From positions 1 to 33,173 of the IMG/VR virus record IMGVR_UViG_3300025759_000369: DNA of 33,173 bases. One strand, given 5' to 3'. Below, one piece after another: positions 20,175 to 22,915 of the stretch. A model generated the notes under the pieces. The model made no database searches, was not told where the DNA came from, and saw nothing but the letters and a program-made list of their open reading frames with translations. The position numbers and the translations under genes are program-made. Position 1 is the stretch's first letter; each line of letters opens with the position of its first letter. Source of the stretch: a virus.

Positions 20175-20202
20175 TTGACATATTGTGTCACGAACATATG
20201 CT
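20175..20202 (+). promoter_or_regulatory. Candidate early rightward promoter
   Basis: TTGACA (20175-20180, a perfect -35) is followed after 16 bases by TATGCT (20197-20202, four of six matches to the -10). Transcription would begin at about 20209, 23 bases before the HTH gene, which has AAGGAGA at 20219-20225. A weaker leftward pair (TTGCAA, then TATGTT) lies on the opposite strand in the same gap. The divergent arrangement suits an early control region. Confidence 0.5.
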
Positions 20203-21699: not shown

Positions 21700-21940
21700 G
21701 CATAGCCTAAAGTCAAAGCGTAGGCATCCAACTGCGCCGCGAGAACGCATAGAAGTCGGGCATATTACTTTTGAGTTGTGTCCGACAAATGCAACGTTTG
21801 CATTAATAGCTGGCAACGCAGTGCAGTCAAAAGATAGACGCCCATTGTTCTCTGGCATGATAGAACCCGAAATGGAAAAAGAACTACGCAGGGTAGCGTT
21901 TAGAATGAAGCATATTCTAAGCAATAAAAAAGGGGATTGA
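21692..21940 (+). CDS. Basic hypothetical protein
   Basis: 82 residues from ATG 21692, which overlaps the previous stop by eight bases; ATG 21683 is an alternative. Basic start (SKHSLKSKRRHPTAPRER), then a beta pattern (IEVGHITFELCPTNATFALI) and a basic helical end (LRRVAFRMKHILSNKKG). No strong ribosome site, so translation is probably coupled. No family was recognised. A nucleic-acid-binding role would suit the charge and neighbourhood. Confidence 0.62.
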   Translation: MSKHSLKSKRRHPTAPRERIEVGHITFELCPTNATFALIAGNAVQSKDRRPLFSGMIEPEMEKELRRVAFRMKHILSNKKGD

Positions 21941-21943
21941 CAA

Positions 21944-22315
21944 ATGCCACTAAAGAAGTACGCTAACGCGAGCCCACCAGGGCGAGATAGTAACTTACAA
22001 GTTACTACTACCAGTAACTACAGTAGTTACTGTAAAGAAACTAACAATAACTATATAACTAGTAATAACTACAAGATCTTACAGGAGACACTGACTCGGA
22101 TGTCACCGGCGTACAAGATGGGTAAGAAACGTAGGCAAGAAGATCCGTTGTCCTGGCGAATACAGAAAGTCAGTAGCAAGATGAGGCCAATGATGTCTGT
22201 AGATAAATTTTTAGAAGTTTCTAAAAGTATCGCAGTGGCTAGCCCAATGGAGCAGGTAGAGATTATACATCGATTAGAAATCTGGCTAGACAAGGTGCAT
22301 GGGATCAAGTTATAA
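21944..22315 (+). CDS. Hypothetical protein encoding repeat-bearing DNA; replication-initiator candidate
   Basis: 123 residues, AAGGGG upstream. Residues 14-45 are Ser/Thr/Asn/Tyr-rich and low in complexity (TTTSNYSSYC; KETNNNYITSNNY) because the DNA here carries inverted repeats. Residues 50-123 are basic and helical (YKMGKKRRQEDPLSWRIQKV; PMEQVEIIHRLEIWLDK). In lambda the origin lies inside the initiator gene O, as the repeats here lie inside a gene. No polymerase, primase or helicase gene exists, so an initiator recruiting host enzymes is plausible. This is inference only. Last gene before the early terminator. Confidence 0.6.
   Translation: MPLKKYANASPPGRDSNLQVTTTSNYSSYCKETNNNYITSNNYKILQETLTRMSPAYKMGKKRRQEDPLSWRIQKVSSKMRPMMSVDKFLEVSKSIAVASPMEQVEIIHRLEIWLDKVHGIKL
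21989..22031. repeat. Two tandem perfect inverted repeats (AGTAACT/AGTTACT)
   Basis: AGTAACT (21989-21995) and AGTTACT (22000-22006) form a perfect 7-bp inverted repeat with a four-base spacer. AGTAACT (22013-22019) and AGTTACT (22025-22031) form a second one with a five-base spacer. The centres are about 24-25 bases apart, roughly two helical turns. AT-rich DNA with further TAACTA words follows to about 22073. This layout suits protein-binding iterons or an operator. Confidence 0.72.
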
Positions 22316-22403
22316 CAAACTAGAAGTATGAGTTTCATCGCTTGTAAACTGCTCACATACTTCTCCTGATGGGCCGTAGTTCTCAGTCTGTCCGGTTAAC
22401 TGG

Positions 22404-22450
22404 CCCTTGCCTGGTTAGGTCACGCACTGCAACGGCGAGGGCGTTTTTTT
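22404..22450 (+). terminator. Rho-independent terminator after the early genes
   Basis: CCCTTGCC (22404-22411) pairs with GGCGAGGG (22434-22441), eight pairs with one wobble, and is followed by CG and seven T (22444-22450). It separates the early set from the terminase genes. The gap 22316-22462 also holds GGGCC/GGCCC and a CCGGTTAACTGG near-palindrome just upstream, so it may also include a packaging signal. Confidence 0.72.
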
Positions 22451-22462
22451 AAAGGAAGACAC

Positions 22463-22915
22463 ATGGGCAAAAGCAGAACAATTACTACACAAATAATGGA
22501 AAAGATTGTTGACCGATTAGCTCAAGGCGAAACACTTGTAGATATTACAAGCGATAACAACATGCCTACATACAGAGCAGTAACAAGAGCAGTCGCAGGT
22601 GATGATGACATGTTTGAGTTGTACAGGCGTGGACGCATACTACAGGCAGAGTTTTACAGCGATAGAATAAACAAGCTAGCAATGGAGCCCTTACCAGAAG
22701 ATGGTGATGTCAGGCATCTCAATGCAGAGGTCAATAGACGTAGACTAGAGATAGATACGCTGAAGTGGACAACAGCCAGGAACCAGCCGTTCGGTATACG
22801 TGACAAGAAAGAAGACCAGCCACAATCACAAGCGTTTACCATTAGCTGGCAAGGTGGAGATGTGGCAGTCAGTGCATTGGAAGAGGATGAACAAGACGTT
22901 GTGGTCAAGCATTAG
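22463..22915 (+). CDS. terS: Terminase small subunit (Sf6-type)
   Basis: 150 residues. Residues 8-45 form a helix-turn-helix (IMEKIVDRLAQGETLVDITS; MPTYRAVTRAV), then DDDMFELYRRGRILQAEFYS and a helical segment, as in Sf6 gp1-like small terminases that bind the packaging site and load the large subunit. The acidic C-terminus (EEDEQDVV) is likely to contact the large subunit. GGAAG precedes the ATG. Two small genes lie between it and the large subunit. Confidence 0.78.
   Translation: MGKSRTITTQIMEKIVDRLAQGETLVDITSDNNMPTYRAVTRAVAGDDDMFELYRRGRILQAEFYSDRINKLAMEPLPEDGDVRHLNAEVNRRRLEIDTLKWTTARNQPFGIRDKKEDQPQSQAFTISWQGGDVAVSALEEDEQDVVVKH

Follow-up and report, generated by a model that had tools for sequence, protein, structure and literature searches.

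The window, a stretch of 33,173 nucleotides from an uncultured marine phage, contains a small gene of 123 codons at 21944-22315 on the plus strand, and the element considered here, whose parts are given on that strand too, sits within the coding DNA of that gene. The gene lies between the early rightward genes and the terminase genes, with the TerS gene, which matches the Sf6-type small subunit, at 22463-22915. Relatives were taken from viral contigs, and 79 distinct gene sequences were compared, 71 of them with a start codon. As the reading frame is conserved in these relatives, open throughout and with insertions and deletions that preserve it, we regard 21944-22315 as a real gene, and the idea that translation begins only at the invariant Met53 was dropped, since the frame and the start codon are kept in all lineages. 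Every copy combines a short 5' end (YANA...) with a low-complexity middle that varies and a C-terminal domain that is conserved. Among the isolate phages searched there was no DNA match to the window and no protein match for its member of the family or for that of L098, and the GTDB genomes searched gave no match either; a search of 17-24 kb against Rfam matched no family. The upstream neighbours, between a 78-aa gene and 21944, differ between phages even where their copies of the gene are nearly identical, which places the gene at an exchange point. Downstream, at 22402-22451 and upstream of terS in the relatives, a terminator-like hairpin with a T-run directly precedes terS in every lineage and is itself preceded by a conserved CTCAACTRGC-like leader, an arrangement that suggests late-gene control by antitermination.

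Two inverted repeats of AGTAACT/AGTTACT, already seen in the first-pass annotation, are present at 21989-22006 and 22013-22031, the only such pairs in the window (two found, against none in 100 dinucleotide shuffles of the window), and their centres, put at about 24-25 bp apart, are separated by 24.5 bp. The arms are longer than was then stated: dyad 1 (21988-22007; core TAACT-N4-AGTTA; TAGTAACTT-AC-AAGTTACTA) has 9-bp arms and dyad 2 (22012-22032; core TAACT-N5-AGTTA; CAGTAACTAC-A-GTAGTTACTG) has 10-bp arms, and the pattern TAACT-N3-5-AGTTA occurs in the window only at this locus. The AT-rich DNA with further TAACT words that was said to follow the dyads is also there, extending to about 22080, and its A+T content makes 22033-22080 a candidate unwinding region; the array as a whole (21989-22090) is 71% A+T compared with 59% for the genome, placing it in the top 3% of 100-nt windows, and the arrays of relatives range from 58 to 80%. 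Nine palindromes with arms of at least 6 were observed against 0.31 expected under phage codon usage, with 0 of 2000 reaching as many. That the DNA itself and not just the peptide is selected, as had been suggested, is supported by this codon-usage control (p = 0.001 for the inverted words in the window) and by the other lineages, where repeated 6-mers exceed synonymous permutation in all eight tested (p <= 0.0065), while the stricter control of permuting the gene's own synonymous codons gives p = 0.06-0.09 for the window alone. A change of sign in GC skew, expected near 22.0 kb, is absent: skew is positive across 20-25 kb and tracks gene direction, and it was therefore discarded as an origin marker. 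Near the array there is no perfect match to a DnaA box, only matches with one mismatch.

The repeats are real, but the element is larger than these two repeats and includes a promoter-like block, a hairpin and the AT-rich array in the first third of the gene. The conserved cassette boundary GGGRTTGACRRATG opens with a ribosome-binding-site-like GGGG (21932-21935) kept in all lineages, and all lineages have GGGRTTGACRR ahead of the start codon despite unrelated DNA farther upstream. Overlapping the gene start, a sigma70-type promoter-like block, TTGACA-16 nt-TACGCT (21937-21964), is conserved in all lineages and runs into the near-invariant block TACGCTAACGCGA (21959-21971), in which codons 6-9 across 70 genes read only TAC GCT (or TCT) AAC GCG (or GAG); no synonym of TAC GCT AAC GCG is used in these genes, whereas in the C-terminal domain the codons for conserved residues mostly differ between genes. 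The promoter pattern has only one other match in the window, at 20175-20202 in the early rightward promoter region, and such matches are neither rarer nor commoner than chance, so that the case for a promoter is made by conservation. At 20175-20202 and in the relatives, a dyad TGACA-N5-TGTCA conserved across lineages overlaps the TTGACA of the early promoter region and is likely the operator for the adjacent 67-aa HTH protein.

Directly after the near-invariant block, at 21972-21983, lies the hairpin GCCC-acca-GGGC, in which 99.1% of cells are paired and all four pairs have changed on both sides among 27 distinct heads, with a covariation score reached by 0 of 500 shuffles. Versions of the stem among these heads include GCCC/GGGC, GGCC/GGCC, GGTC/GACC, GGGT/ACCC, CGCC/GGCG, CCCC/GGGG and GCCT/AGGC, and the encoded residues change along with the stem (SPPG, RPTG, RSTD, RVTT, TPPG, SLPR). 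The promoter block and the hairpin are thus under constraint at the DNA level. A transcript starting about 7 nt past the second hexamer would carry the hairpin at its 5' end.

Between the conserved ends of the gene, which are kept in the 79 distinct relatives, the array alternates among three unrelated word sets, namely TAACT/AGTTA (the window lineage, L098, L128 and L132), CASTG (CAGTG/CACTG words; L018, L079, L112 and L144) and GAGC-type words (L094, L040 and L097), and each set is enriched about 10-100-fold in the array over other sequence. Copy number changes in frame between relatives, the units being multiples of three, and multiple iteron-like units with such in-frame variation and phage-specific sequence are one mark of an intragenic origin of the lambda O type. 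The half-sites are kept in relatives only in part: within the window lineage the TAACT/AGTTA cores are retained in all members with variable flanking bases, including L010 with changes in both arms of dyad 1, while the other lineages use other word sets. The type of array is not congruent with the tree of the C-terminal domain, as TAACT arrays are found inside a CASTG clade and vice versa, and among the early genes tested none encodes a protein that tracks it; a 95-aa winged-helix protein, for example, shows 99% identity between phages whose arrays differ. The array may accordingly be bound by another phage protein or by a host protein.

The gene product is a candidate small initiator or replisome-recruiting protein. 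Residues 1-36 are predicted to be disordered (AlphaFold2 pLDDT below 50), and residues 40-119 (22061-22300) are predicted to fold into a C-terminal domain of five helices (pLDDT about 83-95). The 123-residue product matches no Pfam or PHROG family, and a structure search gave no PDB match, and so no solved structural relative, the only hit being a viral predicted structure, A0A516LVE7 (probability 1.00, E 2.8e-3). The hope that structure prediction might reveal a DNA-binding fold was disappointed in that no known one was found, and a profile comparison with O-like proteins was not significant (P = 0.08-0.16); neither an N-terminal winged-helix domain nor an O-family sequence was thus detected by Pfam, PHROG, fold or profile comparison.

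Among the relatives found through TerS, eleven contigs encode a 715-730-aa AAA_25 protein that resembles RepA-type primase-helicases, and none of the eleven has an intact array gene. Of 17 long contigs, 12 carry the array gene, three the AAA_25 protein and none both, the remaining two being truncated contigs with neither; these counts derive from metagenomic contigs that are possibly fragments and include close kin. Contigs with the array gene have no AAA_25, no DnaB_C above cut-off and no DNA_pol_A, and the AAA_25 primase-helicase is absent from the window, so that the earlier statement that this genome has no recognisable polymerase or helicase stands at the Pfam level. Phages with closely related terminase hence have either the array gene or a primase-helicase with its own iterons, and never both intact. 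The iterons of the AAA_25 phages lie directly 3' of the primase-helicase gene (CCACACTT in L054, CCACAGTT in L057, CCACACCT in L104 and the CCTCACTT type in L078). L078 has an AAA_25 replicon and, farther on, what is left of the 3' part of the array gene (L078:2795-2923), truncated and frameshifted and with promoter block, hairpin and array all gone, and this remnant together with the phage's own iterons is what the swapping of one replicon for another would leave. The module, with its dense lineage-specific repeats, is in other words replaced by a primase-helicase replicon. The AAA_25 replicons of L054 and L057 resemble it in their early-region location in phages whose terminase is closely related and in having lineage-specific iterons with hairpins, but they encode their own primase-helicase and their array is intergenic, downstream of that gene.

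Two further observations were made on these replicons. The same remnant of the array gene occurs in L084 (L084:629-755), a phage that likely has a primase-helicase replicon as well, and at L054:4146-4310 and L057:4107-4265 there are arrays of iterons and hairpins in which the unit changes in concert between the phages.

The nearest isolates are HTVC010P-type pelagiphages, whose TerL is 55-57% identical. These isolates carry, at the equivalent position opposite the nuclease and annealing genes, a 228-aa gene annotated 'putative transcriptional regulator', which matches PHROG families of O-like replication initiation proteins and is among the last of the early rightward genes. The middle of this gene contains direct repeats, spaced 22 bp apart, whose sequence varies with the phage, with GATAGCCGTT in Greip, HTVC100P, 024P and 035P, GATAGCCAC in HTVC010P, GATAGCTCA in HTVC204P, GGGTATTAAAGAACAC in HTVC034P and TGTATAWAAAAGATCA in Skadi-4, and these repeats are a candidate origin for the HTVC010P-type pelagiphages. 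O-like genes were located at L179:2607-3290, at L186:801-1487 (HTVC010P, KC465898 31592-32278) and in L180-L188, annotated as transcriptional regulator or hypothetical. In the cultured relatives, then, the equivalent place is held by an O-like initiator gene that contains iterons. The isolate genes (HTVC010P, Greip, Skadi and others) share with the window gene the corresponding genome place, intragenic repeats and a repeat sequence specific to the phage, but differ in their length of about 228 aa, their winged-helix domain and the 22-bp direct repeats in mid-gene, and at the protein level the two families have only a short P-x-Y-K motif in common. Skadi has been described as a phage without DNA polymerase, helicases and primases that has a lambda-like helicase loader (PMC10504331).

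Taken together, we consider it probable that the repeats belong to a replication origin of the phage, located within the gene that encodes its cognate small replication protein. The origin first proposed for this locus gains from the covariation of the hairpin, the lineage-specific arrays, the exclusion of the primase-helicase and the O-like gene at the corresponding place in isolates, and it loses the GC skew and the DNA-binding fold that had been expected of it. From the exclusion and the position we infer that the gene is a replication gene, and from the features of the locus we infer origin activity, transcription, a binding protein and a recruiting role for the product, which could work together in the following way. 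A protein dimer would bind the array of short dyads (TAACT-N4/5-AGTTA in the window phage) beside AT-rich DNA; the promoter-like block would give rise to a transcript starting at the hairpin, and this transcription would help to open the DNA or would supply a primer; and the gene product, the folded part of which is the C-terminal helical domain, would help to recruit the helicase, primase and polymerase of the host, since the phage encodes none.

The layout resembles that of lambda O, although a recognisable DNA-binding domain is absent and membership in the lambda O family is not claimed. Lambdoid origins lie in the middle of O and consist of iterons and AT-rich DNA, with four iterons in lambda and six in Stx phages (PMC7466680), and lambda replication depends on transcription (PMC3985674). 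Shared with them are repeated sites and AT-rich DNA inside a gene and in-frame variation of copy number, as well as, if our reading of the window is right, the role of that gene in replication, protein binding at the repeats, transcription through or near the origin and reliance on host replication enzymes. By contrast, the window gene has 123 and not about 300 codons, its repeats begin 15 codons from the start and are short dyads as opposed to 18-19-bp iterons, its protein is without the N-terminal winged-helix domain, a promoter-like block and a covarying hairpin of its own stand ahead of the array, and changes of array type are not tied to the remainder of the gene. A possible but doubtful version is an origin started by transcription, in which a promoter in the first codons gives rise to a hairpin-led RNA that opens or primes replication through the array; a 123-residue protein without a DNA-binding domain would then suffice, array specificity would come from another phage or host protein, and array and gene body would be separate, exchangeable parts.

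An operator, the main alternative in the first-pass annotation, has been weakened and now appears unlikely. Here the block would fire a transcript, the dyads would bind a repressor or activator dimer, and replacement by a primase-helicase would be incidental or result from loss of a regulated early operon. The promoter-like block directly upstream of the dyads recalls phage operators and late promoters such as lambda OR and pR', the dyad geometry fits a dimeric regulator, and arrays vary between lineages as repressor specificities do. However, the window dyads are not repeated at other phage promoters; the early promoter at 20175 lacks them and has a different conserved dyad, and no early regulator gene tracks the type of array, the winged-helix protein included. 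In addition, an array of 6-14 words that lies in coding DNA and varies in copy number is more origin-like. Every lineage has a separate leader with a terminator immediately ahead of terS, which suggests that late control is exerted there and weakens the idea of a late promoter at the array, and in most lineages the dyads are away from terS.

A structured RNA or single-stranded DNA element, for example a 5' leader with a stabilising or regulatory effect on an RNA, or a priming signal, is in our judgement decidedly unlikely as an explanation of the locus. The hairpin pairs covary without retention of sequence, which is the signature of pairing and not of protein recognition, and in several lineages the folding of regions that start at the hairpin is stronger than that of dinucleotide shuffles (z about -4). 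Against protein-preserving synonymous permutations, however, only about half of the lineages show significant folding, and the window does not (p = 0.40), whereas the repeated words are significant in nearly all; no Rfam family was matched, and the origin model can itself include such an element, which is then no rival to it.

Very improbable is a packaging site (pac or cos) recognised by the terminase small subunit, whose gene follows closely downstream. Phages commonly have repeated terminase sites close to terS, and the window array lies about 450 bp before terS, but the phages L052-L061, with TerS 76-78% identical, have the primase-helicase replicon and no intact array gene, and other lineages have the array 2-3 kb away from terS and behind leftward genes. 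It is scarcely credible that the stretch is only a low-complexity Ser/Asn/Tyr linker, its DNA repeats following from repeated peptides, for although the frame is always kept, the units are multiples of three and the stretch is predicted to be disordered, the repeats exceed synonymous permutations in eight other lineages, the residues at the hairpin change so as to preserve pairing, and the synonymous sites of codons 6-9 are frozen.

Phages of the HTVC010P type are among the most abundant viruses of the ocean, yet they have no DNA polymerase, helicase or primase, and our searches of the open literature found no paper that joins HTVC010P with iterons and none that describes an origin for such phages. 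The start sites proposed here belong to three interchangeable replicons, with the origin placed inside a mini-initiator gene in the window, inside an O-like gene in the isolates, or beside a primase-helicase gene. Each of these replicons is short enough to be cloned, so that the start of replication in such phages becomes directly testable, and an origin inside the gene, if true, would explain how replication starts in phages without DNA-copying enzymes.
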